In this document: piece after piece, positions 18,130 through 57,346 of the stretch
How the letters are laid out: each line of letters starts with the position of its first letter
Position numbering within the stretch: the first letter of the stretch is position 1
From: Clostridia bacterium
GTDB lineage: Bacteria; Bacillota; Clostridia; Oscillospirales; CAG-272
Assembly: GCA_017463125.1 (NCBI GenBank)
Contig: JAFTPV010000004.1
Location: 1 to 58,793, forward strand
DNA: 58,793 nucleotides
Direction of reading: 5' to 3'
Made by a program: the position numbers and the translations under genes
Notes under the pieces: generated by a model
Told to the model about the DNA's origin: nothing
Seen by the model: only the letters and a program-made list of their open reading frames with translations
Database searches by the model: none

Positions 18130-18137
18130 ATACACAA

Positions 18138-18163
18138 GTGGGGCAAAGTGGACAAATGTGTAT
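18138..18163 (+). promoter_or_regulatory. MraZ-binding direct repeats
   Basis: GTGGGG (18138), GTGGAC (18148) and GTGTAT (18158) repeat with an exact 10-bp period. MraZ is known to bind GTGGG-type repeats with about 10-bp spacing in its own leader. Here they lie at the start of the transcript, so MraZ should repress the whole cluster. Confidence 0.75.
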
Positions 18164-18242
18164 CATTTTCCCCTAAAAAGACACTAAAATTCCCGGTTCA
18201 GACCTTAAAATCATAAAAAAATCAGCAAAGGAGGTATCTTTT

Positions 18243-18665
18243 ATGTCATTCGTTGGCTCATATTCGCATTCTCTTGATGCAAAAAAGCGCGTCTTTATCC
18301 CTGCGAAATATCGTGAAGAGCTCGGCGAAGTGTTCTACATAACTCGAAAATTTGATACCTACCTTTCTATTTACACCGAAGACGATTGGAATATCTATCT
18401 TGAAAAAATCGAAAAGCTGCCCGAGTCTATCGGTGCCGAGATACAGGATTTCATTCTCGGCGGAGCGCAGAAATGCTCGCTTGACAGCAACGGAAGAATT
18501 ATAATCGAGGACAGACTACTAAAGCACGCAATGATAAACAAGAACGTAGTCTTCGTAGGCGCCGGAAAGCAAATTCGTGTATGGGCGGAGGAGCTTTGGT
18601 GCGAGCGTGAGGAAAAGCGCGACTTTGAAAAGATGCGTCAAACTCTTGCAGAATACGGTCTTTAA
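18243..18665 (+). CDS. mraZ: Transcriptional regulator MraZ
   Basis: The 140-aa protein holds two AbrB-like (SpoVT-AbrB fold) half-domains: GSYSHSLDAKKRVFIPAKYREEL (residues about 5-27) and GAQKCSLDSNGRIIIEDRLL (about 75-94). In the family it forms a ring-shaped oligomer that binds repeats ahead of its own gene to control division and wall genes. SD AAAGGAGGT. The first gene of the cluster; rsmH follows after 23 bp. Confidence 0.95.
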   Translation: MSFVGSYSHSLDAKKRVFIPAKYREELGEVFYITRKFDTYLSIYTEDDWNIYLEKIEKLPESIGAEIQDFILGGAQKCSLDSNGRIIIEDRLLKHAMINKNVVFVGAGKQIRVWAEELWCEREEKRDFEKMRQTLAEYGL

Positions 18666-18688
18666 TTCCCTATCGAAAGGTAACTGTT

Positions 18689-34155: not shown

Positions 34156-36366
34156 TTAATAATAGGCAAAAATTTTCTGCTTCAAAGCAGTGTAACGCAT
34201 AACCTCGCTGTTGTTTGCCACCATTTTTCGCGGTATTTCGCTCTTTCCGACAAGAATTACCATTTTTTTTGCTCTGGTAACCGCTGTATAAAAAAGATTT
34301 CTGGTCATGAGCATAGGCGGACAGTAATACATCGGGATTATAACAACAGGATATTCACTTCCCTGACTTTTGTGCACTGTTATTGCATAAGCAAGCTCCA
34401 GCTCAGAAAGAAGGTCAAAGGAATATTCGGCAACCCTGTCGTCAAACCAAATAGTCATTGCTTCCTCGGACTCGTTTATACTCTGTATAACTCCGATATC
34501 TCCGTTAAAAAGCCCTGTGCCGACAGCACCGTTTTTCTCCCACTCTATATCGTAATTGTTGGCAATCTGCATAACTCTGTCACCTTCTCTAAAAATGACG
34601 CCGTGCGCTTGTTTTTCCTTTTTGAATTTAGCTCTAGGATTGATACTTTCTTGAAGAACCGTATTCAAGTTTTCGACACCGCCGACGCCCTTTTTGGAAG
34701 GGGTTATGACCTGTATAACGTCGCGGATCTCCCTGCCATAAGTTCTCGGGAGTCTTTCGGTTATAAGCGTGGCAATAGCTTCTGGAATGTCCGTATCCGC
34801 CTCTCGTCTGACGAAGAAAAAGTCGTTATCCGTAACGGCAAGATTCGGGGACTCGCCGTTATTTATTTTATGAGCGTTGGTAACTATGAGGCTTTCCTTA
34901 GATTGCCTGAAAATTTCGGTAAGCCTTACGGTCTTTATCCTCTCCGTCGCTATTATATCCGACAGCACATTGCCCGCGCCTACGCTTGGAAGCTGATCGG
35001 AATCACCTATAAGTATAAGCCGGGAGCCGCGCTTTATTGCACGAAGAAGAGCCGCCGTCAAGGATAAATCGAGCATCGACGCCTCGTCAACTATTATAAC
35101 GCTCTCGGAAATCGGGGAGCGCTCGTTGCGGTAAAATTTAGTTTCACCAACAAAGTTATGCTCCATCTCAAGCATACGGTGGACGGTCTTTGCTTCCTCG
35201 CCTGTCGCCTCGCTCATACGCTTTGCAGCTCTTCCTGTCGGAGCAGCGAGCGCCACCTTCATACCAAGGCTTCGGAAGATAGAGAGCATAGCCTTGATAA
35301 CGGTCGTCTTACCCGTTCCGGGACCTCCTGTCAGGACCATAACGCCGGAGCGCAATGACGAGTAGAGTGCCTCGCGCTGAAGAGGCGCAAAGCTTATACC
35401 AAGCTCTATCTCCACCTTTTCTACAAGAGCGCCGATCTCTGCTGTACCGAAGCTGTCTGCATTTTCAGAAAGCATAAAAAGCTTTTTTGCTATATAGTCC
35501 TCGTCCTCGGCAACCTCGCACGTCATAACGAACAAGGTATCGTCAATCTTCATCGAGGCAAGCTCCCCCTCGTCAAGCAGCTCATCGAGATTTGTGCGCG
35601 CCGTGTCAGCGTCTATCTCAAGCAGCTCCGACGCTGCCAAAACGAGCTTATTATCGGGCAGACAGGTATGTCCGTTTACCGAAGCGTTGTAGGAGAGGAC
35701 GTATTTTATTCCGGATAGTATCCGTTCTCTTGAATCGTGCGGAACGTTCAGCGCCCGCGCTATCGAGTCTGCCTTGTCAAACGGGATACCGAACTCGCCG
35801 TCACAGAGTATATAAGGATTTGCCTGCAAAATTCCGACGGCACCTACTCCGAGCTTTTTATAAACCCTCGAGGCATCGCCGGCAGACATAACCCCGCTGC
35901 ATAGCATCATAACGCCGCGCATACCGGTCTGTTCTCTGAAGGATTCCGAGATAGCGGCAGCTTTCTTCATCGTTATACCGGGAATATCCGAGAGCCACTC
36001 CGGGTGATTTTCTATAACGTCAAAGGTCTCCGTGCCGAATTTGTTTACTATCTTCAGCGCGGTAACAGGTCCTACGCCCTTCACCGTTCTTGACGATAGG
36101 TACTGAAGAATACCGTCAACCTCCTCGGGCAGAGTTTTCTCAAAGGCGTCAAAGGCAAACTGCCTGCCAAACTCCTTATGATATGTATACGAGCCTCGAA
36201 GAACAACTCTCTCCCCCTCAAACGCCATAGGAATAATGCCGACAGCGGTTATAAGATTGCTCTCGGCATCTGATATTTCAAAAACAGTGTAATCGTTACT
36301 CTCGTTACGGTAAACGACGTTTTCTATCGTACCGCATATTTCTTCTGATTTATCGAGTTTCCCCAT
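34156..36366 (-). CDS. recD2: RecD-like ATP-dependent 5'-3' DNA helicase RecD2
   Basis: The 736-aa SF1B helicase has the RecD2-specific N-terminal OB and helix-hairpin-helix region (residues about 1-200, with VKGVGPVTALKIVNKFG and SDIPGITMKKAAAI) not found in RecBCD RecD. Helicase motifs follow: LTGGPGTGKTTVIKA (Walker A, about 340), DEASMLD, GDSDQLPSVGAGNVL, LTEIFRQ and the C-terminal YAITVHKSQGSEYPVV and FYTAVTRAKK. It acts in DNA repair and replication-fork maintenance in bacteria lacking RecBC. Own promoter and SD GAGGGATTAA. Confidence 0.95.
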   Translation of the reverse strand: MGKLDKSEEICGTIENVVYRNESNDYTVFEISDAESNLITAVGIIPMAFEGERVVLRGSYTYHKEFGRQFAFDAFEKTLPEEVDGILQYLSSRTVKGVGPVTALKIVNKFGTETFDVIENHPEWLSDIPGITMKKAAAISESFREQTGMRGVMMLCSGVMSAGDASRVYKKLGVGAVGILQANPYILCDGEFGIPFDKADSIARALNVPHDSRERILSGIKYVLSYNASVNGHTCLPDNKLVLAASELLEIDADTARTNLDELLDEGELASMKIDDTLFVMTCEVAEDEDYIAKKLFMLSENADSFGTAEIGALVEKVEIELGISFAPLQREALYSSLRSGVMVLTGGPGTGKTTVIKAMLSIFRSLGMKVALAAPTGRAAKRMSEATGEEAKTVHRMLEMEHNFVGETKFYRNERSPISESVIIVDEASMLDLSLTAALLRAIKRGSRLILIGDSDQLPSVGAGNVLSDIIATERIKTVRLTEIFRQSKESLIVTNAHKINNGESPNLAVTDNDFFFVRREADTDIPEAIATLITERLPRTYGREIRDVIQVITPSKKGVGGVENLNTVLQESINPRAKFKKEKQAHGVIFREGDRVMQIANNYDIEWEKNGAVGTGLFNGDIGVIQSINESEEAMTIWFDDRVAEYSFDLLSELELAYAITVHKSQGSEYPVVIIPMYYCPPMLMTRNLFYTAVTRAKKMVILVGKSEIPRKMVANNSEVMRYTALKQKIFAYY

Positions 36367-36397
36367 TTAATCCCTCGTTTTGCGTTTCTACACTAGT

Positions 36398-36426
36398 ATT
36401 ATATCATTTTGCAAGCTCTTTTTCAA
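36398..36426 (-). promoter_or_regulatory. Promoter of recD2
   Basis: Minus strand TTGAAA (36421-36426), 17 bp, TATAAT (36398-36403). Confidence 0.8.
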
Positions 36427-36435
36427 GACCTTTGG

Positions 36436-36464
36436 TTGACATTACCCCCACTTTGTGATAGAAT
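36436..36464 (+). promoter_or_regulatory. Promoter of the AlkD-like gene
   Basis: TTGACA (36436-36441), 17 bp, TAGAAT (36459-36464) with TGA before it. It is back-to-back with the recD2 promoter. Confidence 0.8.
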
Positions 36465-36499
36465 TTTAGAAAAGCATCTGCAAAATGGAGAATTTAGCA

Positions 36500-37174
36500 A
36501 TGACGGATATACAGTCTGCGCTTTTTGAAAAATCCGACACAGAATATAAAAAATTCCAAGCCCCTCTTATCCCTACGGTTCACGAGGAGCTGATAATAGG
36601 AGTTCGCACGCCCGTATTGCGCGCTTTTGCCAAAAGTATTTACGGAACCAAAGCGGCCGAGGATTTTATAGGAGCACTGCCCCACAGGTATTACGACGAG
36701 GATAACCTGCACGCGTTTCTTATAGAGCAGATACAGGATTACGACTCGTGCATAAAGGAGCTTGACAGATTTTTGCCCTATGTTGATAACTGGGCGACCT
36801 GCGATTCCATGTCGCCGAGGGTATTAAAAAAGCAGCCCGAGAGGCTGATAAAGGATATCGTGCGCTGGTTAAGTTCAAGCCACACATACACGGTGCGCTA
36901 CGGAATAGTTATGCTGATGAAGCATTTTCTTGACGATAATTTCACACCCGAAGCATTAGATTACGTAGCAAATATTTCGAGCGATGAATATTATATCAAT
37001 ATGGCAAGAGCATGGTTTTTCGCAACGGCGCTGACAAAGCAATACGACAGTGCGCTCCCTTACGTATCCGAGCATAGACTGGACGGGTGGACGCGTAAAA
37101 AGGCGATACAAAAGGCACGCGAGAGCTATCGGATAAGCAAGGAAACCAAAGAAAAGCTAAAGGCATTAATATAA
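36500..37174 (+). CDS. AlkD-like DNA alkylation repair protein
   Basis: The start is the ATG at 36500 (MTDIQSALFEKSD), 9 nt after GGAG; the ATG at 36485 has no SD. The 224-aa HEAT-like repeat protein resembles AlkD glycosylases: GVRTPVLRAFAK, DNWATCDSMSPRVL (the Trp-Asp/Cys-Asp region around residue 100 that carries the catalytic Asp), RYGIVMLMKHFL, and WTRKKAIQKARESYRIS at the end. AlkD excises bulky or cationic alkylated purines. Divergent from recD2. Confidence 0.82.
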   Translation: MTDIQSALFEKSDTEYKKFQAPLIPTVHEELIIGVRTPVLRAFAKSIYGTKAAEDFIGALPHRYYDEDNLHAFLIEQIQDYDSCIKELDRFLPYVDNWATCDSMSPRVLKKQPERLIKDIVRWLSSSHTYTVRYGIVMLMKHFLDDNFTPEALDYVANISSDEYYINMARAWFFATALTKQYDSALPYVSEHRLDGWTRKKAIQKARESYRISKETKEKLKALI

Positions 37175-37177
37175 ACG

Positions 37178-37207
37178 AAGAGGCCGGGTTACTGTACCCG
37201 ACCTCTT
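37178..37207. terminator. Hairpin between AlkD-like gene and metK
   Basis: AAGAGGCCGGGT (37178-37189) pairs with ACCCGACCTCTT (37196-37207) with one mismatch. The U-tract is weak on both strands; it lies between convergent stops. Confidence 0.6.
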
Positions 37208-37211
37208 AAAT

Positions 37212-38393
37212 TTAGATGCAAAGCTCGCGGAGCTTGTCCGCGATGTCGCACTCTTCCCATTTAACACCAAGCTCTTCTCTACCCATGTGACCATAGGCTG
37301 CAAGCTGCTTGTAAATAGGCTTTTTCAAATCGAATTTCTTGATAATAGCAGCGGGACGAAGATCCACGAGCTTGTTTACCGCCTCGGAAATTTTTTCCTC
37401 ATCTACCGTTGCGGTGCCGAAGGTGTCAACCATTACCGAAACAGGCTTGGCAACGCCTATCGCGTATGCTATCTGAACCTCGCATTTTTTAGCAAGTCCT
37501 GCTTTAACAACGTTTTTTGCAATATATCTTGCGGCATAAGACGCGCTTCTGTCAACCTTCGTAGGATCCTTACCCGAGAAGGCGCCGCCACCGTGACGGG
37601 AATATCCCCCGTATGTATCAACGATTATCTTTCTGCCCGTAAGACCCGTGTCACCCTGAGGACCTCCGATAACGAATCTACCGGTGGGGTTTACGTATAT
37701 ATTGAGCTTACCGTCCATAAGCTCCTTTGGTACGGTGGGAAGAATGACCTTATCAATAATATCCTTGCGCATAGTTGCCATATCTATCTCGGGGCTGTGC
37801 TGCGAGGATATAACGATAGTGTCTATTCTCTTCGGCATACCGTCAACATACTCAACGGTAACCTGAGTTTTTCCGTCAGGGCGAAGATAAGAAAGCACAC
37901 CATTCTTACGAACCTCTGTAAGCTTCTTTGCAAGCTTGTGGGCAAGAGATATGGGCAGAGGCATAAGCTCGGGTGTCTCGTCACAAGCGTAGCCGAACAT
38001 AAGTCCCTGGTCGCCCGCACCGGTATTAAGCTCGTCAGAGCTCTCGCCCTCCTTTGCCTCAAGGCACTTGTCAACTCCGAGTGCAATATCTGCAGACTGC
38101 TCGTGTATCGAGCTGATAACCGCGCAGGTAGTAGCGTCAAAGCCGTACTTTGCCCTATCGTAGCCGATCTCGGATACCGTTTCTCTTACTATTTTCTGAA
38201 TATCAACCTTGGATTTAGTAGTTATCTCACCCATAACGGTGATTATACCCGTCGTTGCAAAGGTTTCGCAAGCAACGCGGCTATCCGGATCCTCCGCGAG
38301 CATAGCGTCAAGAATAGAGTCCGAAATTTTGTCACAAATTTTGTCGGGATGGCCCTCCGTTACCGACTCTGAGGTAAAAAGAATTTTTTTCAT
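37212..38393 (-). CDS. metK: S-adenosylmethionine synthetase MetK
   Basis: The start is the ATG at 38393 ([21 protein letters not shown]), behind AAAGGAC; the longer frame runs into the riboswitch terminator. The 393-aa enzyme joins methionine and ATP. Motifs: [74 protein letters not shown] and [12 protein letters not shown]. Regulation is by the SAM-I riboswitch directly upstream. Confidence 0.97.
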
Positions 38394-38408
38394 TTTCAAG
38401 TCCTTTCC

Positions 38409-38543
38409 AAAAAAATAGCGCTCGGGAATCCGTCCGAAAGCCCCGAGCAAAAAGCCAAAGCTCATCTCTCAGGAATTGGCACCTTATAAAACACAGGTTG
38501 CCGGGCTTCACAGGGCCAGTCCCTCCGCCTCTCTTGATAAGCA
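38409..38543 (-). promoter_or_regulatory. SAM-I (S-box) riboswitch with terminator
   Basis: On the minus strand the aptamer runs from 38543 (CTTATCAAGAGAGGCGGAGG) through ACTGGCCC, GAAGCCCGGCAACC, AAGGTGCCAATTCC and TGAGAGATGAG to 38461, the conserved S-box order. The expression platform is GCTCGGG/CCCGAGC (38448-38442 with 38426-38420) followed by a T-run at 38415-38409. High SAM should favour the terminator and switch metK off. Confidence 0.95.
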
Positions 38544-43160: not shown

Positions 43161-45329
43161 ATGAACAAAAAGCTGACCATATCAATCTTACTCGCCCTGC
43201 TCCTGACACTTCTCTTTACTGCCTGCCAAGGACAAAAGGCGGTAAGCGGAATTGAGATAACAGGAGGACTGATAAGCGAGTACAGCCTTAACGACACTCC
43301 GGATTTTTCCAAAGTACAAGCTAAAGTTACATACAACGACGGAACTGCAAAAAACGTTGGCTTCTCGGATTTAACCTTTGGAGCTATAGACACTACAACC
43401 GTCGGAACAAAGCAATTGACTATCACGTACGAGGGCTTTATACTTAATGTAGCAATAACCGTGAAGGGTAATTCTCTTGACTCCGGTGCAGATGATACTG
43501 TCGACCCATCAGCTCTTTTTGTAACAGGAACCTCGCTTCCGGAATCGCTGGCTCTTTGGAGTACGAATAGAGGCGAATTCAAAAATCAGACAAACGGCTA
43601 CGTTGTCGGTGACGATAATAGCTTCTATTTCACGTTAAAATTAAGTGTTTATTCAGGAGCTGGTGAAAAAGTGAACGTCACCTCCTACACAAGTGTTTCA
43701 ACTGTTCGTCTTCTCGGTTCCGATACCGTTCTGACAGGCGAAGAGCTTGATAAGTACGTCACTATCGACGAGTCTAAAAACGCCTTTGATTTTACCGATG
43801 CTGCTGTTGGCAAATCGTTTATTATCTCTTCCCGCCCCCGCGACTACGTTGAGGGGAAGGAGGAAGAAATGACGAAGAGCTTTACTGTAACCGTCGTTGA
43901 CGGATATAACGTATACGAGGCTTACGAGCTAAATTATATTACGAATTCCGACACTTTCGATTTCAGCGAAACTAATGAAAACGAAACCAGAACACAGGTT
44001 GAGATCGTAGACGATTTCTTAAGGAACGAGAAAAATGCAACAAGACCCGAGAGCCTTAACGCAATAATTATTCATAACAATCTCGTTATAGAGAAAACGG
44101 ATATTCCCCGAGAGTATTTCCTTGATGGAAATCGCGATAACGAGCTATACGACTTTATGTCGATATTTATACACGCCCTAAACGATACGCAAAAGACCTT
44201 TACAATACACGGAAACTATTTTGCTATCTACTCCTATAACCTTCCCTGCGTTGTTGAAGAAGGCGTTGCCAACCAGGATAATATGGTATCAAACGCACAG
44301 CTCTTCAGATTTTTGGTTGACGTAGATATGGACAAGAACTTCGACCATACGAAATATACCACTAACGTAAAAAATCTTATGCTCGTAGACAATGACCCTA
44401 AAAGCAACGTCGAAGCAAATGCAAAAAAAGCAATGCTCGGTATCGCCGCGATGAAAACCTACTGCCACGTAATAAACCTTGATAACGTAAAGGTTCAAGC
44501 ATTCTATATAAGCATCATTGCTGAACGTGACTATCATACTGTAAACATCAAGGACTCCATATTCTATAATTCTTATCAGAATCACATTCACCTCGCCGCA
44601 AACAACCACTGCCAAGAGGACGACGAGGAGCCGCTTGCAAACGGTTATCCAAGACTTACTCTGAACGTTAAGAGTTCCTCTATCACACAAAGCGGCGGTC
44701 CTGCGATAATTTCGCAGACAATCGATCCGGCTCTTAATAAAAACAAGTATTCCGGTGCTTTAGTGAATATTTCTGACGATACAACTATAGAAAGCTGGGT
44801 TTCGGGCGACGAGGCTTGGTTCAAGGCTTTGAGTATCAATGTTCTTTCCACTAATATAAAGCTCCTCAACCCGTCTTTCTTGAAGCAAAACTCTTCCTTT
44901 GTCAAGGAGGAGATAAAGATCGTAGGCGGTAAACAGGAGAAATTAACTCTTATGAACATCGTTATGGTCAACCTTCTCGTACCCGATATGAGCGGCGGAA
45001 TCGACGGTGCTATAAATCAGGTATTAGGCTCCGGAAACGTTGACGGTAAGCTTATCATAGGCGGTACTACCGTTATGGATATGGACGATAGCGTGTATAA
45101 CGGCAAGCCCATCAAATACGGAAGCCCTACAGTTTCTGATCTAAAAGAGTCAAGCCCTGAACTACGCGTCTTTACAACTACAAACGGTGGAGTTGCCTAT
45201 ACCACAACAATGGGCACACTCAACATTGAAGAAGGAGACATCAGCGCCAAGAGCGAAAATGATTTCCTAACACTCTACTTCTATTCGATGGCTATTGTTT
45301 TCGGAAATTATCACCCCGTTGGAAACTGA
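43161..45329 (+). CDS. Large lipoprotein with Ig-like and beta-helix-like regions (copy 1)
   Basis: A 722-aa lipoprotein: lipobox LFTAC with Cys22. Residues about 28-100 are a Big_3-type Ig domain (EYSLNDTPDFSKVQAKVTYNDGTAK). From about 300 to 600 short beta-strand turns recur (TIHGNYFAIYSY, NLMLVDNDPKS, LDNVKVQAFYIS, VNIKDSIFYNS, LNVKSSSITQSGGPAII), suggesting a right-handed parallel beta-helix. SD AAGGAG. It is paralogous to the next gene. No catalytic motif is recognised; probable surface binding or modifying protein. Confidence 0.72.
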   Translation: MNKKLTISILLALLLTLLFTACQGQKAVSGIEITGGLISEYSLNDTPDFSKVQAKVTYNDGTAKNVGFSDLTFGAIDTTTVGTKQLTITYEGFILNVAITVKGNSLDSGADDTVDPSALFVTGTSLPESLALWSTNRGEFKNQTNGYVVGDDNSFYFTLKLSVYSGAGEKVNVTSYTSVSTVRLLGSDTVLTGEELDKYVTIDESKNAFDFTDAAVGKSFIISSRPRDYVEGKEEEMTKSFTVTVVDGYNVYEAYELNYITNSDTFDFSETNENETRTQVEIVDDFLRNEKNATRPESLNAIIIHNNLVIEKTDIPREYFLDGNRDNELYDFMSIFIHALNDTQKTFTIHGNYFAIYSYNLPCVVEEGVANQDNMVSNAQLFRFLVDVDMDKNFDHTKYTTNVKNLMLVDNDPKSNVEANAKKAMLGIAAMKTYCHVINLDNVKVQAFYISIIAERDYHTVNIKDSIFYNSYQNHIHLAANNHCQEDDEEPLANGYPRLTLNVKSSSITQSGGPAIISQTIDPALNKNKYSGALVNISDDTTIESWVSGDEAWFKALSINVLSTNIKLLNPSFLKQNSSFVKEEIKIVGGKQEKLTLMNIVMVNLLVPDMSGGIDGAINQVLGSGNVDGKLIIGGTTVMDMDDSVYNGKPIKYGSPTVSDLKESSPELRVFTTTNGGVAYTTTMGTLNIEEGDISAKSENDFLTLYFYSMAIVFGNYHPVGN

Positions 45330-45368: not shown

Positions 45369-47516
45369 ATGAAAAAAAGATTTATACTTATCACTTTATT
45401 TACGGTACTTTTGGCGCTTATTCTCACCGCTTGTCAGGGTGAAAAGGCGGTAACGGGTATAACCGTAATAGGTGGCCTCAAATATGAGTACGAGTTAGGC
45501 GAGGTACCCGACTTCTCATCAGTCAAGGCTTGTATATCATTCAATGATGGCACATCTGTCGAGGTAGACTCATCCGCTCTTCAGTTTGACGGCATTAACA
45601 CCGCCATCGCGGGAGCGCAGCAGCTTACGATAAAGCACGGCGGATACACTCACACCGTACAGATAACGGTTAAAGGTGGGGCTATGTCAGGTTCGCCCGA
45701 GGACATTATAACAGGCGTGTCCCTTCCCGAATCGTTGGCTCTTTGGAGTACTAAGAAAAACGATTTTATTAATAAAAATCACGGCTATGTAGTAGGTGAC
45801 GACAATCCCTTCTATTTCACCCTAAAGCTCAGTGTTTATACCACCGACGGTGAGAAGAAAAACGTTACCTCTTATACCAGCGTATCTAATGTTTATCTCA
45901 AGGGTGAAGAGGTGCCTTTGACCGACGGTGAGTTAAGCAAATACGTTTCTATCGATGAAGAGAAAAATGCCTTTGACTTTACAGAGGAGGCAATAGGCAA
46001 AAGCTTTGTTATCAAGACACGTCCTCGTGATTGCTCAGAAAATCAGATTGACGACTTTACAAGGAGCCTTGATGTCACCGTAGTTGACGGCTACAATATT
46101 TACGAGGCTTACGAGCTTAACTATCTCACAAATTCAGAAAATTTCGACAGTGAGATCAAAATTCCCGATGACTCAAGAGGTCAGACGGCAATCGTTGATG
46201 ACTTCTTGAAAAACGAAAAGAACGCGACACGCCCAGAGAATATTAGCGGTATAGTCATTCATAATGACTTAGTTATTAAGACAACCGATATCCCCAGGGA
46301 ATATTTCCTTGACGGAAACCGTAAAAACGAGCTTTACGATTATATCTCTGTATATAACCATTGCCTTACAGAAGATAATAAGACCCTTACCATAAACGGA
46401 AATTATTTTGCTATTTACTCATACGATCTGCCTCCGGTAGTTGCCGATGGACTTGGAAATCAGGACGACTCTCTATCTGAGGGGCAGTTATTCAAATTTA
46501 CTGTAAACGCTGGTAAGAATGCTAACTATAATTACAGGCTATATTCTACAAATATTACGAATCTTATGCTTGTAGACAACAATCCGCAAAGCAATAACAT
46601 AGATAATAGTTCAAAGGCTATGCGCGGTCTTATCGCGATAAAAACGCGTGAGCAAGCAGTAACTCTCGACAATATTAATATACAATCATATTACATTAGT
46701 TATTATGCAGAAGGGGATTATCAGACCGTTAGAATTAAAGACTCTATATTCTATAATTCTTGGCAAAACCATCTATTCTTCCGTCCGGAAAATACTATTC
46801 AAGGAGCTGATGAAGAGCCTGTAAGTGAAAATTATCCACGTCTTACAGTCAATATAGAAAGCTCGAAAATAACCTCGTGCGGAGGGCCTGCTATAATCTC
46901 GTTTGTGGCAGATCCCGCCTTTACAAAAAATAAGTATTCAGGCACTCTAATTAACATTTCCGAAGACACCGTTCTGGAAAGCTGGGTCAGCGGTGAGGAG
47001 GCGTGGTTCACCTCAATGAATATCTCCTTTGCTGCCCTTCAGCTTAAAAATCTAAATCTGCTAGTGCAAAAGGAAGACTCAAGCTTCATCAAGGAGGAAA
47101 TCAAGGTTGTCAACGGTAAGGAAACCACATTCAAGATGATGAATATGGTTATGGTAACCCTGATGGTGCCTGATCTAAGCGGAGGCTGGCAGGGTATCCT
47201 TGATCAGATGCAAGGTAGCACCGATATTGACGGCAAGCTTATTATCGGCAACAAAACGATTATGGATATGGATGACTGCACGGTAGACGGTAAGCATTAC
47301 AACTTCACCGATACAAAGATAGCTGAGCACAAGGCAAAAAATCCCGAGAGCCACGTTTTGACTAACGTGTCAGGCGGCTCGGCATACACTTCTGTCGGTA
47401 GCAATCTTACAGAGCTTTCCGGTGATATAAGCGCTACCAGCGATGATGATTATCTCACCGTATATTTCTATACTCTCGGAATCGTGTTTGGCAACTATCA
47501 CAGCCTAATTAACTAA
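45369..47516 (+). CDS. Large lipoprotein with Ig-like and beta-helix-like regions (copy 2)
   Basis: The 715-aa paralogue of the preceding gene, collinear along its whole length: lipobox LILTAC with Cys22, Big_3-like domain (about 28-100), the shared SLPESLALWSTK and GYVVGDDN segments, the IPREYFLDGNR motif and the same beta-helix-like repeats. It differs in loop insertions and in AIKTREQAVTLDN-type turns. Tandem duplication with divergence; the pair may form a heteromer or show specialised binding. The SD is weak (AAAGTAAC). Last gene of the operon. Confidence 0.72.
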   Translation: MKKRFILITLFTVLLALILTACQGEKAVTGITVIGGLKYEYELGEVPDFSSVKACISFNDGTSVEVDSSALQFDGINTAIAGAQQLTIKHGGYTHTVQITVKGGAMSGSPEDIITGVSLPESLALWSTKKNDFINKNHGYVVGDDNPFYFTLKLSVYTTDGEKKNVTSYTSVSNVYLKGEEVPLTDGELSKYVSIDEEKNAFDFTEEAIGKSFVIKTRPRDCSENQIDDFTRSLDVTVVDGYNIYEAYELNYLTNSENFDSEIKIPDDSRGQTAIVDDFLKNEKNATRPENISGIVIHNDLVIKTTDIPREYFLDGNRKNELYDYISVYNHCLTEDNKTLTINGNYFAIYSYDLPPVVADGLGNQDDSLSEGQLFKFTVNAGKNANYNYRLYSTNITNLMLVDNNPQSNNIDNSSKAMRGLIAIKTREQAVTLDNINIQSYYISYYAEGDYQTVRIKDSIFYNSWQNHLFFRPENTIQGADEEPVSENYPRLTVNIESSKITSCGGPAIISFVADPAFTKNKYSGTLINISEDTVLESWVSGEEAWFTSMNISFAALQLKNLNLLVQKEDSSFIKEEIKVVNGKETTFKMMNMVMVTLMVPDLSGGWQGILDQMQGSTDIDGKLIIGNKTIMDMDDCTVDGKHYNFTDTKIAEHKAKNPESHVLTNVSGGSAYTSVGSNLTELSGDISATSDDDYLTVYFYTLGIVFGNYHSLIN

Positions 47517-49492: not shown

Positions 49493-50398
49493 TCAGAGCT
49501 GTTTGAGAAGCTCGCTTTCGCTGTAAGTATATTCGGTGTTGCAGAAGCGGCAAACGGCAGTAAGCTCGCGCGCCTTCCCCTCCGCCTGTTGCTCATCAAG
49601 CATATTAAGGATCTCGCTCTTGCCAAGGCTCTGTATTTTCTTTTTCATTCTGTCGCGGCCGCAGTCGCACTTATATTCCACCTCAAGAGTGTCGAATATA
49701 TCGTAGGGTATATCACGCATTGCAATATCCGCGATAGCCTTATTGTCAAGCCCTTTGTCAAAATATCGGGAAATGTTCGAGAGGTCGGCGGCGTTTCTCT
49801 CAATGAGGTCAACCGTCGCGTCGTCGGGGAACGGCATCAGCTGAACAAGAACTCCGCCTGCGGCAAGGCAGGTATAGTCCTTGTCAATCAGAACACCGAG
49901 GGAAAGCACCGTCGGCACCTGCTCGCTTTTTGCAAAATAGGTGGCAATATCCTCGGCAATCTCTCCGCTCACAAGCTCGATAGTACCGATCTGGGGTTCG
50001 TTTGCGCCAACGGACTTAACGAATGAGATAGTGCCGTTACCGACAGCGGCTCCAACGTCGAGCTTACCGTTTGGCTTCTTCGGCGGGCTTACAAGCGGGT
50101 TCTGAATATAGCCCTTAACGTTTCCAAAATAATCACCGACGGCAATAATCTTACCTGCCTCGCCGTCACCCGAAATTGATATAGTAACGGTATCTTTTGA
50201 CTCGGGGAGCATAGTTCCTATCATAGAAGCTGCGGTAACAGTTCTGCCGAGCGCTGCGGAGGCGGTAGGGCTTGTGTGATGGTATTTTATCATATCGTCA
50301 ACGATTTTTCTCGAATTAATAACTAAAATTCGGGCAGAACCATCTCTCGTCATGCCTCTGAGTATCGTTGAGGTTGGTAACCTTTTACTATTTTCCAT
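49493..50398 (-). CDS. hslO: Redox-regulated chaperone Hsp33
   Basis: The 301-aa protein is Hsp33, activated by oxidation to hold unfolding proteins. It has the N-terminal core (TRDGSARILVINS, HHTSPTASAALGRTVTAASMIGTML), GGVLVQLMPFP and the zinc switch: CDC at 244-246 and CRFC at 283-286. Its start overlaps the methyltransferase gene by 11 bp, so it belongs to the same transcript. Confidence 0.95.
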   Translation of the reverse strand: MENSKRLPTSTILRGMTRDGSARILVINSRKIVDDMIKYHHTSPTASAALGRTVTAASMIGTMLPESKDTVTISISGDGEAGKIIAVGDYFGNVKGYIQNPLVSPPKKPNGKLDVGAAVGNGTISFVKSVGANEPQIGTIELVSGEIAEDIATYFAKSEQVPTVLSLGVLIDKDYTCLAAGGVLVQLMPFPDDATVDLIERNAADLSNISRYFDKGLDNKAIADIAMRDIPYDIFDTLEVEYKCDCGRDRMKKKIQSLGKSEILNMLDEQQAEGKARELTAVCRFCNTEYTYSESELLKQL

Positions 50399-51164
50399 TA
50401 TTTACTCCATTTTCCTTTTTACATCTTGCGACGATATATATCCGCTCATTTTCGTCCGTCGCAGACGAAAAATCAAAATCCGAATAAGCGCCTATAAATT
50501 CAAAGCCTGTATCCTTTAGCATACCCTTGATGCTTCTGAGAGTATACATTTTTTCCCTTTGAGCCTCGTCGTATCTCTCATACCTTCCGTCATCCCCCTC
50601 AGCAAAGAGAGTTATGTAGAAATCGCAGATACCGCTTTTTTCATTATAATAGTTCTGCCAGATACAAACGCCGCCCTGCTCCTCCATTACGTAGGACCTA
50701 TCAGAATAGATATTTTCAAACTTATATTTTCCGTTAATATCGAAGATAAAAAGTCCGTCGGGAATGAGATAATTGTGAACCAGGGATAAGCATTTTTTTA
50801 CATCGGCAGGGCTTGTCAGGTGGTTTATACTGTCAAGACAGCAAACTGTAACGTCAACAGTTCCGTAAAGCTCAAACTCACGCATATCCTGACAGAGCCA
50901 CAGAACGTCATGCCCGTCAGACTCTGCAATTTCTCTTGCAATATCCAACATTTCGGGAGAATAGTCAACTCCCGTCATATCGTAGCCGCGACATGCAAGC
51001 TCGAGAGTCATTCGACCCGTTCCGCAGGCAAGATCGAGCAAAAGCTCGGGGCGGGTGTCCCCGTATTCCCTCCTAATAATTTCCTCGATAAAGTCTGCCC
51101 AAGCGCCGTAATCAATATCCGAATTTATCGAATCGTAGAAGGGGGCAAGTAAGTCGTATATCAT
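50388..51164 (-). CDS. Class I SAM-dependent methyltransferase
   Basis: The 258-aa protein has a Rossmann methyltransferase fold: motif I LLLDLACGTGRMTLELA (about residues 41-57), TGVDYSPEMLDIA, DVTVCCLDSINHL and GLFIFDINGKYKF. The substrate is not evident; no target-recognition domain for DNA is visible. The start overlaps the helicase stop by 4 bp (ATGA) and the end overlaps hslO, so it is translationally linked to the TerB/ATPase/helicase genes upstream. Confidence 0.82.
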   Translation of the reverse strand: MIYDLLAPFYDSINSDIDYGAWADFIEEIIRREYGDTRPELLLDLACGTGRMTLELACRGYDMTGVDYSPEMLDIAREIAESDGHDVLWLCQDMREFELYGTVDVTVCCLDSINHLTSPADVKKCLSLVHNYLIPDGLFIFDINGKYKFENIYSDRSYVMEEQGGVCIWQNYYNEKSGICDFYITLFAEGDDGRYERYDEAQREKMYTLRSIKGMLKDTGFEFIGAYSDFDFSSATDENERIYIVARCKKENGVNNGK

Positions 51165-53407
51165 AATTTTTCACCTAGCAGCCTTTCCACAACCTCCTCT
51201 TTGCACAGTCTGTCAACGCTATAGGCGTCACAAAGCAGCTCGGAGGGTATATATTCATCGTATTTATCAAATATCGGGCACTCACCGTCAAAGACAAGCT
51301 CCGAGGTATCTAGTCCGTCGCGCTCTACTATCTCGGCAAGGCGGGCGTCAAGGTCTATTGCGCCTCTGTCCTTTGCCTTAAATGTGATATAAACACAGCC
51401 CTCGCTCCTTATATCGCTTATGCCAAGCTCGCCAGAATATTTCTGCATAAGTCGGCGAAGAGTGCGAAAGGCACGTGTGCCGAGCCAAGGGAATATAACG
51501 TAGCTCTGACCGCCGAGGAAGATAACGTAGCGCTCGTCCATACGGGCGTTTTTCGCAACCTTTCTTGCGTTCTCGAGCCTTGCCTTTGCATTATCACCAA
51601 GGAAGGCGTAGTCCTTGCCGTTAAAGAGCACGTTCCTCATAGCGACGAGAAGCCTTGTGTGTATCTCACCGCTATCTCCGGGCCATGAAACCTCCATCTT
51701 ACCCTCGACGCTCTTAACGTACACGAGCTTTCTCGGTACATCAACCTCCTTTACCTCCCATACCCTGCCCGCAAGAGCAAATCTGTCACCGGGAGGGGGC
51801 GGTGTTGTTATAGTGCCTATCTCCTCGCTGTCACACCGTACGGTAAAGTCCTCGCTGTCCTTAAAGACCGCATAAAACTTAAATGAGTTTATTATTCTCT
51901 CGCCTGCAAGTCCTACTATCAACCCGCCCTCGTCGGTGAGCTGGACATAATCGTTATTTATCATAGAAACAAGCAACGCCCGATAGCTCTCCTTACCGAG
52001 AACGGTGAGCGGCGGCAGAGTAAGAACCCTCTCCGCAAGCGCCCTAGGGGTCAGCTCACCTACCGACGCAAGGATAGAGAGCGTTTGATGAAATGCAAGT
52101 GAAAGCGGCATTTTCTTTATCCTCGGGGGCTCGATAAAGCGCTCATCGGAATAAAGATCAATTATAGCTATACCTCGCAACAGCTCCCAGGGGATTATCT
52201 GCGGAAGAGGGGCGTTTGGAAGCGGGGTATCCTCTCTGTAAACCATTATCATCTCCGGGGGAGAGCCTCGCCTGCCCGAGCGTCCGAGCCGCTGTAAAAA
52301 TCCCGAAACCGTAGTTGGCGAGCCCATCTGCGCGACTCTGTCAAGTCTTCCGATATCTATACCCAGCTCCAGCGTCACTGTGGCACAGGTAACGGCACGC
52401 AAGACCTCCTCGTCCTTCATCTTACTCTCCGCGTCCTCTCTTATGGAGGCGGAAAGATTTCCGTGATGGATAAGAAAAATATCGTCGTCACCTCTTGCGC
52501 GCGAGATCTGCCGTAGAGTTGCGGTGACGTATTCGGTTTCTTCTCTCGAATTGGAAAAAACTATTGCTTTTCTGTTATAAACCGAATCATAGAGAAATTC
52601 ATACCCCGGATCAAGCCCTGCACTACCGCCTCGATCAATGGGCGAAGCTGTCGCGAGTGTCGGGGCGGGAGTCTGAAGCTCGCTAGGATTTTGAGTATAG
52701 AAATGCTCAAGACAAAGCCGCCATTTAAGCGGTGTTTTTTTAGGCCTCGGTGCAACGGTATCACGCCCGCTTCCCATACCGAGCCATTCGGCAGTCAGGT
52801 CAATATCGCCAACAGTCGCGCTGAGTCCGATACGCCTCGGGTGATGACCGATAAGACGGCCTATCCTCGCAAGCTGGCACAGCACCTGATTTCCCCTATC
52901 GGAGCCGATCATCGCGTGCACCTCATCAATCACGACGTAACGCAGCGAGCCGAAGAGGCGCGGTATATCGTTTGCGCGCTTCATCAGCATAGCCTCAAGC
53001 GACTCGGGCGTTATCTGCAAAATCCCCTCGGGATTTTTTAGCAGCTTTGATTTATGGCTCACACCAACGTCGCCGTGCCAATGGGTTACGGGAACTCCGC
53101 TCATATCGAGAAGCTCGTCAAGGCGGTAAAACTGGTCGTTTATAAGCGACTTAAGCGGCGCTATATAGAGAACCGAAACCGAGCGCTTTGCCTCCGGGTC
53201 GTCGTAAATATCCGAAAGGATCGGAAAGAAAGCAGCCTCCGTCTTTCCCGAAGCCGTTGAGGAGGAGATAAGGAGATTGGAATCAGTTTCAAAAATGATT
53301 CTCGCGGCATCAAGCTGTACGTCACGAAGCTCGCTCCAGCCGTGACCGTATATATATTCCTTAATAAAATCGGGAAATCTCGCAAAGACTCTGTCCGCCT
53401 CTGTCAT
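51161..53407 (-). CDS. Lhr-like DEAD/DEAH-box helicase (SngC-like)
   Basis: I prefer the ATG at 53407, 10 nt after AAAGGAG; a TTG at 53413 is possible. About 748 aa. Helicase core: LRDVQLDAARIIF (Q-motif area), SSSTASGKTEAAFF (Walker A, Lys about 55), VVIDEVHAMIG (DEVH), GLSATVGD, then domain 2 with VSGFLQRLGRSGRRGSPPE. The C-terminal half (about 400-750) holds an Lhr-type winged helix and core extension. Such helicases translocate on single-stranded nucleic acid. It follows the ATPase gene after 27 bp. Confidence 0.85.
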   Translation of the reverse strand: MTEADRVFARFPDFIKEYIYGHGWSELRDVQLDAARIIFETDSNLLISSSTASGKTEAAFFPILSDIYDDPEAKRSVSVLYIAPLKSLINDQFYRLDELLDMSGVPVTHWHGDVGVSHKSKLLKNPEGILQITPESLEAMLMKRANDIPRLFGSLRYVVIDEVHAMIGSDRGNQVLCQLARIGRLIGHHPRRIGLSATVGDIDLTAEWLGMGSGRDTVAPRPKKTPLKWRLCLEHFYTQNPSELQTPAPTLATASPIDRGGSAGLDPGYEFLYDSVYNRKAIVFSNSREETEYVTATLRQISRARGDDDIFLIHHGNLSASIREDAESKMKDEEVLRAVTCATVTLELGIDIGRLDRVAQMGSPTTVSGFLQRLGRSGRRGSPPEMIMVYREDTPLPNAPLPQIIPWELLRGIAIIDLYSDERFIEPPRIKKMPLSLAFHQTLSILASVGELTPRALAERVLTLPPLTVLGKESYRALLVSMINNDYVQLTDEGGLIVGLAGERIINSFKFYAVFKDSEDFTVRCDSEEIGTITTPPPPGDRFALAGRVWEVKEVDVPRKLVYVKSVEGKMEVSWPGDSGEIHTRLLVAMRNVLFNGKDYAFLGDNAKARLENARKVAKNARMDERYVIFLGGQSYVIFPWLGTRAFRTLRRLMQKYSGELGISDIRSEGCVYITFKAKDRGAIDLDARLAEIVERDGLDTSELVFDGECPIFDKYDEYIPSELLCDAYSVDRLCKEEVVERLLGEKL

Positions 53408-53434
53408 ATCCAAAAAGCTCCTTTCTGCCTGAAA

Positions 53435-54805
53435 TTATATATCAATATCGAACAAATTAATTTTTTTGACGTTTGTCGCCTGCGGTGTACTGTCAGTCTG
53501 TTGCAGGGCAGTCTTGGCCGTATCCTGAGCCGTTCCCTTTGCAAGAAGGGTGTCAAAGCTTACACCCGGGTTATCCTTCAGAATATTCAGAAGTGTGAGG
53601 TAATCCCTTATTATCTCACGGGGAGTTATCATCTGCTCTGCTCCCGCTCTTGAAAGCGCCTTGCTCATAAAGCGCTCGATCTGCTGATCCGAAAGAGGCA
53701 GGGTGTCGCTTCCCTCTCTTTGTGCATAGAGCTTCGTCAGCCGCTTTACAAGCGCTAAAAGCTCGTTATCCGAGAGGGTTCGGAGCCTTATTACAGGTGA
53801 AGAAAGATTTCTGTAGCCAAGCTCGGAATATCTTGAATCCGCAAGCCTGCTCTTCAGCGCGTCGTAGCTGAAAAGACCGCGCCTCGTATCCTCAAGGAAC
53901 TGCGGAGTTCCTCCAAAAATTACGCCGAGATTTTTCGCCTTTCCCTGCAAGGTATCTTTAAATATGGCGAGTAGCTTCTCGTAATTTGCTTCTCTCGATA
54001 TTCTATTAGGTATTTTATAAAGATTTACACATTCGTCAATAAAGAGTATCAGTCCCGAATAGCCGAGCCTTACCGTAAGGGAGGCAAAGAGCTTGATAAA
54101 GGAGTACCAATTATCATCGTTTATAACCGTGCTGACGCGGAAGCCGAGAGCGGACGTTGCCTCTGTCTTTGTCGAGAACTCGCCTCTTATATATCTTAAG
54201 CACGCCGTAGCCTTGGCACTCTCACCGACGATGGAGGCGGAATAATATTCGCCAAGCACCTTTGCAAAATCAAAGCCGCCCGTATCTCCCTCAAGCTCGG
54301 AAAGCGTAAGGTATACCTTCTTTTTTAACTCGGTATCAAAGCCTTCCGATTCCGGAAGACGACCCTCGGATATAAGCTCGGTTTTCAGAGCCGTAAGATG
54401 TCTTGAAAGTATCGTTTGCAGAGCGTTACCGTCGGGAGACGCCTTGGTTGCGATATTCGTCATAAGCTCCTTATAGGTGGCAAGGCCAGCACCGCTCCCT
54501 CCCGTAAGTCTGCGCTCGGGAGTAAGGTCTGCGTCAGCCGTTACGAAGCCGCGCTCTATTGCATATCCGCGTATCAGCTGTATAAGAAAGCTCTTACCGC
54601 TACCGTATCTTCCGATAAGGAAACGGCAAAACGCGCCCCCCTCACCTACGGTCGCAAGATTATCAAGCAAGGAATTTATCTCGTCCTGTCTGCCTATCGC
54701 GATATAAGGCGCTCCGCTTCTCGGTACTACGCCTGCGGTAAGGGACGCAAGGAGGGTATTTAATATTCTTTTCGGTACCCTTGCCTCATTCATTTCGATA
54801 GCCAT
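53435..54805 (-). CDS. DUF2791/BrxD-family P-loop ATPase (SngB-like)
   Basis: The 456-aa protein starts VPKRILNTLLASLTAGVVPRSGAPYIAIGR, characteristic of DUF2791 ATPases related to BREX BrxD. Walker A is GRYGSGKS (65-72), Walker B GLILFIDE (251-258), followed by IFGGTPQFLED and a helical region with an arginine-rich motif. The C-terminal about 60 residues are polar and disordered. In BREX and Shango loci such ATPases accompany Lhr-like helicases. Its ATG overlaps the TerB gene by 16 bp; SD GGAGG. Confidence 0.85.
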   Translation of the reverse strand: MAIEMNEARVPKRILNTLLASLTAGVVPRSGAPYIAIGRQDEINSLLDNLATVGEGGAFCRFLIGRYGSGKSFLIQLIRGYAIERGFVTADADLTPERRLTGGSGAGLATYKELMTNIATKASPDGNALQTILSRHLTALKTELISEGRLPESEGFDTELKKKVYLTLSELEGDTGGFDFAKVLGEYYSASIVGESAKATACLRYIRGEFSTKTEATSALGFRVSTVINDDNWYSFIKLFASLTVRLGYSGLILFIDECVNLYKIPNRISREANYEKLLAIFKDTLQGKAKNLGVIFGGTPQFLEDTRRGLFSYDALKSRLADSRYSELGYRNLSSPVIRLRTLSDNELLALVKRLTKLYAQREGSDTLPLSDQQIERFMSKALSRAGAEQMITPREIIRDYLTLLNILKDNPGVSFDTLLAKGTAQDTAKTALQQTDSTPQATNVKKINLFDIDI

Positions 54806-56316
54806 GCGGATACCTCCTCTCTGTAATCATCAATAACGGTATATTTTTCACCGTCAAATTCGAGTAAAACGTCGCCAAAGCCGTCTGATGCCGCCTCGTT
54901 TATTCTCTCGGCAGCCGCGTCATCAGAGAAGCCGGACTCAAGAGCCACAGAAAGCAGACGAATATCGGCTAAAGAAAGTCCGAAAATACCCTCGTCCGCT
55001 TGGGTAACAGGCTCTATTACGTCAGCCGTTACGGGCTCCTCCCGCATTTCCTCTTCCTCAACGAGTCTTGCCGTCGTCTGCCAAGAGGTCTGCTCAAGCC
55101 TTTCCGCATCCTCGAAGGAGAGCGACTGGCTCGGAGCGTCGTAGAGTCTCTCGTACTCGGGAAGATTTTCCCTTGCGATACGCGCGCGTTCCCTTTCAAA
55201 AAGACCGTCAAAATATCTGTCTATTATACGCTTATATTCGTCGGGAAGCTCTTTTATTCCAAGACGGCTCTTAACGCCGAGAAGGGCACGCAGCTTGTTT
55301 TCCGTATATCTTACCGACTCGGTAACTATTTTACGCAAAGCATCGTCACCAGAGAGCGAAACGTATTCAATCTCAAGAGTGCATTTAACCGCGTGCGTGC
55401 AAAGAGAGTGAGGGAATGCGGCTCTTTTTATTTTAGTCACTTTGGAATCAGCTATACTGTATCCGTCACTAAAAAGACGGTCAAAAACGAAGGACATCGC
55501 AAGGAGCGTATGCCGTTTATACGCATCCTTTTTATCCGACGCGGCATACCTCCCCCTCCTAAAATCATAGTCGGAGAGGTAATAGAGCATCGTTTCCGTT
55601 CCGCGAATGCCGGACTTCAATATATCCGAAAGATAAAATTCCTTAAAATCAGACGAGGCTACCACCTCGTAAAGAAAATTACCTATCTTGTCGGTGTCAA
55701 GCTTAAGATTATATACCAGGCAAAAATCCTGCACCCAAACCGCAAAATACGGGTCGATTTTAGGTAAAGACTCTCTGTATTCACGCCAGAGGGTCAAGAG
55801 TATCTCAAGCGCCTCCATAGGCAAAAACTTATCCGGAAGATTCAGTATCTCGTAAACGTAAAGATAAAGGTAGGAGTAGTCACTCTTTACAAATCTTCCG
55901 TGCCTTACCTCATCACGCCAAAAGAAATAGTAATTTTTCTGTGCGGAGGTAAGCTGAGAATACTGCGGCATATAGGAATAATATGGTGCGAAATCTGCTC
56001 TTGGGGTCTTAAAATCGTAATAGACGAGAGCTGCCTTACGAAAGGTTGAGTAAAAATCGTATTTATCGATATTTTTCTTTACGGTAACTCGCTTTATCAG
56101 AGAGGAATCGCTCTCGTAAGTCAGCACCACGTCACCGTCGCGCTTATCAACGTCTGAAAAGGTGAGCTTGTTTTCTTCGTTTTTCGTATCAGCTTCTCCC
56201 GAAACGACGTGAAGAGCAGTTCCTTTATTCGTAGCAAAGGGAGTGAGCGTTTGTTTCTTTTTGGGAACGAGCTTTTCTATATCCCAAAAATCGTCCATAT
56301 CCTTATCAAAAGACAT
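54790..56316 (-). CDS. TerB N/C-domain protein (SngA-like)
   Basis: The 508-aa protein has the TerB_N signature around residues 85-160: KAALVYYDFKTPRADF, PYYSYMPQYSQLTSAQKNYYFFWRDEVRHG, YSYLYLYVYEILNL. A middle helical region and a Glu-rich linker (EEEEMREEPV) lead to a C-terminal domain (about 440-508) of TerB_C type. It is cytoplasmic with no catalytic motif; TerB-like domains are thought to sense or bind metals or partners. First gene of the operon, with SD GGGGGGAGG and its own promoter. Confidence 0.82.
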   Translation of the reverse strand: MSFDKDMDDFWDIEKLVPKKKQTLTPFATNKGTALHVVSGEADTKNEENKLTFSDVDKRDGDVVLTYESDSSLIKRVTVKKNIDKYDFYSTFRKAALVYYDFKTPRADFAPYYSYMPQYSQLTSAQKNYYFFWRDEVRHGRFVKSDYSYLYLYVYEILNLPDKFLPMEALEILLTLWREYRESLPKIDPYFAVWVQDFCLVYNLKLDTDKIGNFLYEVVASSDFKEFYLSDILKSGIRGTETMLYYLSDYDFRRGRYAASDKKDAYKRHTLLAMSFVFDRLFSDGYSIADSKVTKIKRAAFPHSLCTHAVKCTLEIEYVSLSGDDALRKIVTESVRYTENKLRALLGVKSRLGIKELPDEYKRIIDRYFDGLFERERARIARENLPEYERLYDAPSQSLSFEDAERLEQTSWQTTARLVEEEEMREEPVTADVIEPVTQADEGIFGLSLADIRLLSVALESGFSDDAAAERINEAASDGFGDVLLEFDGEKYTVIDDYREEVSAWLSK

Positions 56317-56356: not shown

Positions 56357-56385
56357 ATTTTAGCACAAAAGGCGTAGCTTGTCAA
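56357..56385 (-). promoter_or_regulatory. Promoter of the TerB/ATPase/helicase operon
   Basis: Minus strand TTGACA (56380-56385), 17 bp, TAAAAT (56357-56362) with TGC before it (extended -10). Confidence 0.85.
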
Positions 56386-56449: not shown

Positions 56450-57346
56450 TTATATTACACTTTCCGCATAAAACGCGGCATATCCTATGTCAGATAATGC
56501 TGCTACTGCTGCCCTCGCCTCAGAAGAGGTTCTGAATATTCCAAACACAGACGGTCCGCTGCCGCTCATAAGAGATAGCGTTGCGCCGTATGAGCTCATT
56601 TGTTTTTTCAGCTCTGCCACCGATTTTATACGGTCTTTTGAGGATTCTTCAAAAATATTGAACGTGTGCTCGGGTGAAATAACGGAGTGTAAATAATCCC
56701 TTTCAAACAACGGATAGAGAGCTTCGCCTCCTGTCTTTACGCTACCGTCAAAGTTAGAATACTGCCCGTCAAGAGTGCGGTATGCCTCCGGTGTAGAGAC
56801 CCGCTCGCTTCCCTTGGCTATTGCGAAGTACATTTTTTCACAGTCGGGCATTTTTGTAATCAGCTCTCCCCGCCCCTCGCACAGCGCCGTTTTTCCAACA
56901 AGGCAAAACGGGACGTCGGAGCCGATTTCCAGACCCAGACGGCAAAGCCCCTCCTCGTCAAAGCGTAAGAAAATTGCGTTCAGCGCTCTTAATGTAGCGG
57001 CAGCATCGGAGGAGCCTCCCGCAAGTCCTGCGGCAATCGGGATATTTTTTATAAGCTGAATTGATACAGTAGCAGAAAGTCCTGCCTTATCAAGATAAGC
57101 ACGACAGGCGCGCATAACAAGATTATTATCATCAGCAGGTAGGTCAGCTCCCAAAATATCAAGTGTAATAAAGTTTTTTTCAGACAGCTCTGCCGAAACC
57201 GTGAGATCGTCAGCAAGGGATACAGAGTGCATAACCGTTTTAACGTTATGAAAGCCGTCATCTCTACGCGAAACAACGTCCAAAAATAAATTTACCTTTG
57301 CATAAGCCTTTTCATTTACGGTTTTAATAACGCACACCCCCTCCAT
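56450..57346 (-). CDS. ispE: 4-(cytidine 5'-diphospho)-2-C-methyl-D-erythritol kinase IspE
   Basis: The GHMP kinase (up to 298 aa) phosphorylates CDP-ME in the MEP pathway, linking the two halves of the IspDF fusion encoded at 16.4 kb. Motifs: AYAKVNLFLDV, KNIPIAAGLAGGSSDAAATLRAL (GHMP loop), GSDVPFCLVG and the C-terminal LSLMSGSGPSVFGIF. The start is uncertain: the ATG at 57346 has no SD, and GGAGGGGG covers codons 1-3, suggesting initiation slightly downstream, perhaps at an ATT near 57328. Confidence 0.93.
   Translation of the reverse strand: MEGVCVIKTVNEKAYAKVNLFLDVVSRRDDGFHNVKTVMHSVSLADDLTVSAELSEKNFITLDILGADLPADDNNLVMRACRAYLDKAGLSATVSIQLIKNIPIAAGLAGGSSDAAATLRALNAIFLRFDEEGLCRLGLEIGSDVPFCLVGKTALCEGRGELITKMPDCEKMYFAIAKGSERVSTPEAYRTLDGQYSNFDGSVKTGGEALYPLFERDYLHSVISPEHTFNIFEESSKDRIKSVAELKKQMSSYGATLSLMSGSGPSVFGIFRTSSEARAAVAALSDIGYAAFYAESVI

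Follow-up and report, generated by a model that had tools for sequence, protein, structure and literature searches.

Linkage is the usual way of finding defence systems, which are generally regarded as mobile. The 58,793-nucleotide stretch of DNA analysed here (the window) carries three minus-strand genes that raise the question of whether this picture always applies. The initial annotation described them as overlapping or adjacent genes with a TerB_N domain, a Walker A GRYGSGKS and a DEVH box, considered them a chromosomal relative of the Shango anti-phage system, and attributed to them a stable, perhaps housekeeping, role rather than a mobile one. Is the trio Shango, and, if so, is it a mobile island, a resident defence or a machine that the cell keeps for itself?

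Regarding identity, the open reading frames, the motifs (the translations contain YYFFWRDEVRHG, GRYGSGKS and DEVH) and Pfam all confirm the three genes as first described (Table 1). The genes are arranged head to tail, with an overlap of 16 bp between SngA and SngB and a gap of 21 bp between SngB and SngC, and the stop of SngC overlaps the start of the following methyltransferase gene by 4 bp. Among the PADLOC profiles, SngA is the sole match of the first protein (154.2 bits), the second matches SngB with 522.9 bits versus 138.4 for BrxD, and the third matches SngC with 778.8 bits versus 397.0 for BrxHI. Pfam lists TerB_N (50.4 bits) and TerB_C (34.0 bits) in SngA, PF10923 BrxC_BrxD (474.8 bits), which we take to be the former DUF2791, in SngB, and DEAD (91.2 bits) and Helicase_C (52.0 bits) in SngC, together with a ResIII match that spans the helicase core; it lists no nuclease domain in any of the three proteins. 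The NCBIfam matches shown for the trio proteins are each under their cut-off. Within the genus of the window, runs of columns conserved in at least 95% of the sequences contain GRYGSGKSF in SngB (44 sequences) and both SSTASGKT and QRLGRSG in SngC (40 sequences). Judged by family identity, the trio is the SngA, SngB and SngC of Shango, and the comparison with these profiles and with BrxD that had been proposed as a check shows that Shango fits and BREX fits worse. In any case, the function may have drifted, as the SngA match is the weaker one (154 bits) and the SngB score is below most: 16 of the 20 other genomes of the class with at least 290 bits score above the 522 bits observed here, up to 645.

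Table 1. Coordinates of the trio, its expression signals and its neighbours in the window.
Feature	Position	Strand	Basis
hslO (Hsp33), downstream anchor	49493..50398	(-)	Pfam HSP33 262.4 bits, synteny
Class I SAM-dependent methyltransferase, downstream anchor, not a Shango gene	50388..51164	(-)	Pfam Methyltransf_25
SngC-type SF2 DEVH helicase, 750 aa, TTG start	51161..53413	(-)	PADLOC
SngB-type AAA+ ATPase, 456 aa, Walker A GRYGSGKS	53435..54805	(-)	PADLOC, Pfam
SngA-type protein, 508 aa, TerB_N + TerB_C	54790..56316	(-)	PADLOC SngA, Pfam
Near-consensus extended -10 promoter, TTGACA-17-TAAAAT, TG before the -10	56385..56357	(-)	Sequence scan
Terminator-like hairpin and T-rich tail separating ispE from SngA	56442-56401	(-)	Read in sequence
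ispE-type GHMP kinase, upstream anchor in some genomes of the genus	56450..57346	(-)	Pfam GHMP_kinases_N and _C

The dedicated extended -10 promoter and the upstream terminator that had been noticed before the trio are both borne out in the sequence, the hairpin of the latter being absent from the scanner list because its loop of 12 exceeds the scanner limit of 8. Of the 45 genus loci, 38 have a near-consensus promoter of the same kind either before or at the SngA start that was chosen, and three of the seven negative loci have fewer than 50 bases of upstream sequence. The background amounts to 80 sites in 1.43 Mb counted on both strands, or 0.023 per 420 bases, a figure that takes in most of the SngA sites themselves. 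The SngA promoter is, then, conserved across the genus of the window beyond chance. With a looser pattern, promoters were found at 3 of 16 loci of stand-alone SngC genes and at 8 of 17 SngA genes of split-type and other relatives, so the conservation is genus-wide and does not hold in all relatives.

As for the gene surroundings, the setting among ispE, hslO and pfp is supported by Pfam, which assigns pfp to the phosphofructokinase family and additionally identifies ribosomal protein S6 and SSB among the neighbours, and no integrase or transposase domain was found among the 30 window proteins scanned with Pfam (20 at 12.8-47.5 kb, five at 48.9-56.3 kb and five neighbours). The name ispE is a label for the GHMP kinase that is taken from the earlier reading of the sequence. 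Elsewhere in the window, a RecD2-type helicase, a DNA alkylation repair protein and an S-adenosylmethionine synthetase are encoded at 34156-38465, at most 17 kb from the trio. Two adjoining large proteins with weak Big_3 matches (43161-45329 and 45369-47516) are alike by eye, and a protein similar to this pair is also present in genome G050 (L145 863-3019).

Counting the genome of the window, SngB was found in 45 of the 60 genomes of the genus; of the 38 genomes of other families in the same draw, 7 have it. By way of control, HsdR of type I restriction was detected in five of 30 hand-chosen genomes of the genus, four of them above the cut-off; as 28 of these 30 hold SngB, the control makes no fair contrast of prevalence and carries no weight in what follows. 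The methyltransferase comes next after SngC in 39 of the 40 readable genus genomes, including the window (the exception is G008), as the contig stops before this gene in the other five SngB-positive genomes; hslO follows the methyltransferase wherever the contigs extend that far, and ispE is located upstream of the trio in only part of the genus. In other families of the order, the methyltransferase and hslO are adjacent in 21 of 24 hslO loci (L203, L205-L214, L216-L225), from which it follows that this pair predates the trio and that the trio was inserted upstream of it. The pairing of a small SAM methyltransferase with hslO, a redox chaperone gene, is itself old and unexplained.

SngC is absent from all 15 SngB-negative genomes of the genus, and in the seven of these where the hslO locus was recovered, the flanking genes are kept without the trio; the remaining eight, which gave no hslO match and are 52-71% complete, are uninformative on absence. 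In five genomes (G050, G012, G038, G051 and G022), ispE leads directly into the methyltransferase with a gap of -128 to +11 bp, the negative values hinging on the start codon chosen, and the other two have a gap of 282 bp (G005) or two EamA-type genes between ispE and the methyltransferase (G011). The first of them, G050, is the nearest relative of the window, with 86% identity over the host markers. In this genome, an ORF with an HTH_38 domain, presumably an IS30-type transposase, adjoins ispE at the end that does not face the methyltransferase (L145 12458-13528 (-)). On the 45-genome host tree, which was built with hslO, the methyltransferase, pfp and recA, the absences require four changes, a count that by itself cannot separate gain from loss. 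As seven members of the genus, including G050, lack the trio and 18 of 58 family genomes lack SngB, the trio is dispensable, and these clean absences leave the housekeeping role that had been suggested unsupported. The trio is stable yet dispensable in the genus.

The idea that the interval from ispE to SngA is a defence hotspot was also considered and is unsupported, since no recognised defence gene was found, mostly by eye, among the extra ORFs of seven loci, of which Pfam covered three plus one EamA gene. The extra ORFs of these loci and of L152 comprise one EamA gene recognised by Pfam and others similar to it by eye, and one BspA-type leucine-rich repeat protein; two large ORFs (L034 and L042) have no Pfam family match.

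The descent of the genes follows that of their hosts. Over 37 taxa, 21 of 34 splits are common to the combined SngB and SngC tree and the host tree, whereas shuffles give 0.2 on average and 2 at most. As three of the four host markers are in the neighbourhood of the trio and recA is unlinked, the comparison was also made with recA alone; 17 of 31 splits are then common to the trees of 34 taxa, versus a mean of 0.15 and a maximum of 2 in shuffles. Additionally, a branch with an SH-aLRT of 100 separates the 39 genus rows from six rows of other families in the SngB and SngC tree. This congruence with both host and recA speaks for a single early gain and four losses. Against recA, the Mantel correlation is 0.81 for SngA and 0.73 for both SngB and SngC, with none of 500 shuffles as high, and for comparison 0.84 for hslO and 0.71 for pfp; ispE correlates weakly (0.20) and is consequently a poor host marker. 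In the genus, the trio has a fixed place and a host-congruent descent and is not a mobile island, in agreement with the stability first attributed to it.

The mean pairwise identity over 24 genomes is 0.39 for SngA, 0.66 for SngB and 0.69 for SngC, and 0.55, 0.62, 0.64 and 0.75 for the methyltransferase, hslO, pfp and recA, respectively. Estimates of dN/dS, which are rough because dS is high in most pairs, are 0.04-0.10 for SngB and 0.04-0.08 for SngC in eight close pairs and 0.11-0.17 for SngA in the six computable pairs. Such values point to purifying selection on the trio, with SngB and SngC about as constrained as hslO and pfp and SngA as the fastest-changing member.

Beyond the genus, an order-wide draw of 395 genomes at no less than 90% completeness revealed SngB in 40 of the 58 genomes of the window's family versus 50 of the 337 of the other families of the order, one of the latter (G433) being a weak match. 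Three of the 40 (G399, G495 and G641) carry a distinctly different Shango, with 44-48% SngB identity. In a class-wide draw, the SngB profile matches 36 of 291 genomes; the score is at least 290 bits in 21 of these, among them the genome of the window. The search for SngC covered 52 genomes of the family: 36 that have SngB, including the three of the other type, and 16 that lack it. SngC is present in 35 of the 36, the remaining one (G709) having a weak partial match only, and among the 16 it is full-length in one (G607), with weak partial matches in G506 and G542. The conserved co-occurrence of the three genes on which the Shango proposal depended is thus found in both genus and family relatives.

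Of the 36 SngB-positive family genomes, 14 lack the A-B-C adjacency of Shango that is present in the window, with SngC on a contig other than that of SngB. The separation is deduced from draft assemblies, with minimum distances worked out by hand from the coordinates: SngB and SngC are at least about 9-15 kb apart in four of these genomes (G559, G729, G714 and G669) and more than 30 kb apart in the other 10. In G684, another ORF is found between SngA and SngB. The SngC proteins of four split genomes and of G607 have SngC as their best PADLOC profile in all five cases (751-818 bits), and the best profile is also the expected one for SngA (3 of 3) and SngB (1 of 1) among the proteins scanned from split-type genomes.

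The SngB and SngC trees of 50 genomes, 16 of them split and two of those from another family, have 21 of 47 splits in common (shuffles: mean 0.21, maximum 3). Much of this agreement stems from genomes in which the genes are linked; in pruned trees of the 14 split family genomes alone, 5 of 11 splits are common (shuffles: mean 0.20, maximum 3). On the recA tree (65 rows, without G530, G542 and G660, reduced to 62 for the counts by omitting the three genomes of the other type), the presence of SngB changes 12 times, that of SngC 11 times and the split or joined state three times. Of six independent pairs, an average of 5.4 show SngC changing in the same direction as SngB and none shows the opposite; the sign test is borderline (median p 0.06 for the six pairs, on a recA tree with many open forks). 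Moreover, G607, which has SngC only, and G709, which has SngA-SngB only, group with the split lineages, and this fits the decay predicted for separated genes. On these draft sequences, the genes of several sister genera are unlinked, with SngC apart from SngA-SngB, yet kept or lost together. Co-retention and repeated joint loss in spite of separation represent linkage-independent evidence that the genes act as one unit.

The fastest-changing protein also carries a lineage mark. The N-terminus of SngA has the DDFWDIEKLVPKK motif, and of the 37 sequences from the window's family and family f6, 33 have a DxFWDI-like motif in this region; those without it are G660, G028 (FWEL) and both f6 genomes, G064 and G087. 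In other families of the order and class, it was found in one of 23 SngA sequences (L078), a set that recounts both f6 sequences; the two search patterns differed slightly and some SngA starts are uncertain. Some rows of the SngA alignment (A2) are likewise based on approximate starts, and it was used for conserved columns only. At the C-terminus of SngB, a short acidic-hydrophobic tail is observed by eye in most of the sequences listed.

From these observations, we consider it rather probable that the Shango trio is a long-term vertical chromosomal resident of one uncultured gut Clostridia family, most likely an innate anti-phage defence that no longer hops between strains. By analogy, anti-phage use would be the most likely one, because the homologous system has such an activity and the trio is dispensable, and a maintenance role is also possible. 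In the latter case, a domesticated trio would mainly serve the genome, by restarting or rescuing stalled replication or by dealing with R-loops or single-strand gaps, and would no longer act against phages. We regard this alternative as unlikely: vertical descent, a fixed place, a near-consensus, constitutive-looking promoter, the co-retention of separated genes, the similarity, at sub-cut-off scores, between SngC and Lhr-like repair helicases and the mostly by-eye finding of no recognised defence gene among the ispE-SngA ORFs of seven loci all agree with it, but SngB is missing in the nearest relative and in almost a third of the family, changes state repeatedly on the recA tree and is sporadic elsewhere in the class, as defence genes are. 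A gene set kept for so long with such a promoter could serve the cell itself. A related idea, which we put forward tentatively and hold to be doubtful, is that the Shango of this family has left the mobile defence pool and become a vertically inherited, trans-acting machine for DNA surveillance or genome maintenance, for which adjacency is unneeded and the cell's own replication is perhaps the first job.

That the trio is an ordinary mobile Shango re-inserting repeatedly at one hotspot is, in our view, quite improbable. The sporadic SngB of the rest of the order and class and the distinctly different Shango of three family genomes would suit such behaviour, but the tree congruence, which extends to recA alone, and the single, fully supported genus clade contradict it for the window's genus, and the extra ispE-SngA ORFs resemble transporters or surface proteins, not other defence systems. 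We give almost no credence to a truncated remnant of type 2 BREX with BrxD and BrxHI. These are indeed the second-best profiles of SngB and SngC, but those of Shango score about 385 and 382 bits higher, respectively; BrxD as the identity of SngB was rejected with NCBIfam NF033438, which reaches 139.6 bits versus a cut-off of 350; SngA is present; and no gene of the PglW, PglX, PglY or PglZ type was found among the 30 window proteins scanned with Pfam.

If the trio is a resident defence system, SngB would form an AAA+ assembly akin to ORC/Cdc6 and would place the SngC helicase on particular structures of invading or distressed DNA or activate it there. The SngC motor would block or remodel replication at the loaded site, and SngA, as a fast-changing TerB-type subunit, would sense or license the event, for which it may dock via its conserved N-terminal DxFWDI motif. 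In short, by analogy, SngB probably loads SngC under SngA control. As Pfam lists no nuclease domain in the trio, interference is more likely to be mechanical or regulatory than to depend on cutting.

The co-retention of separated genes makes the choice between defence and housekeeping a testable question, for which the conserved SngA motif and the conserved promoter are concrete experimental handles. Judging from the split genomes, annotation that relies on adjacency may also count too few Shango systems in gut Clostridia and, if the trans-acting reading is true, defence finders that require adjacency are expected to miss it in such genomes.

Some relatives depart from the three-gene arrangement in other ways. 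For instance, in a genome of another family a DpdF-type helicase gene (631.7 bits) comes after SngC with an overlap of 4 bp (L079 5129-6970 (-)), which is possibly an extended Shango. In L078, the 1679-aa protein encoded directly after SngC (14017-19056 (+)) matches PDC-S37, a candidate defence family, with 198.6 bits. Two SngC-like stretches in succession after SngB, a possible helicase duplication, were observed in L139 and L140.

Compared with known systems, the trio has the same three families and gene order as Shango of P. aeruginosa PA14, also known from E. coli; passages of PMC10250203 describe the order TerB-like protein, ATPase and helicase, the inhibition of phage by the Pseudomonas system and its location in a variable defence hotspot. 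In contrast to that hotspot Shango, the trio is vertically inherited at a fixed housekeeping neighbourhood, and the location in a defence island or hotspot, which is typical of Shango but not strictly defining, was not observed here. The N-terminal motif of SngA, specific to this lineage, and the unlinked SngC of several sister genera are further differences. BrxD and BrxHI of type 2 BREX are a homologous ATPase-helicase pair, BrxD being an ORC-Cdc6 AAA+ ATPase proposed to load BrxHI in the portion of PMC12839542 that deals with it, whereas the pair analysed here has a TerB-type partner and no Pgl genes among the 30 scanned proteins. SngC shares its SF2 core with Lhr-like and ligase-associated DEXH helicases, its scores with NCBIfam TIGR04121 (206.7 bits) and PRK13767 (190.9 bits) lying under cut-offs of 850 and 849, and PMC12278908 assigns it, together with BrxHI, DruE and DpdJ, to an SF2 clade that is potentially distinct. 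Shango was reported by DefenseFinder in rumen MAGs, according to a section of PMC13356809. In the open PMC literature, we found neither a report of a vertically fixed or split Shango nor a mechanism for the system. Shango itself was already known, and what is new here is its mode of inheritance and the separation of its genes.
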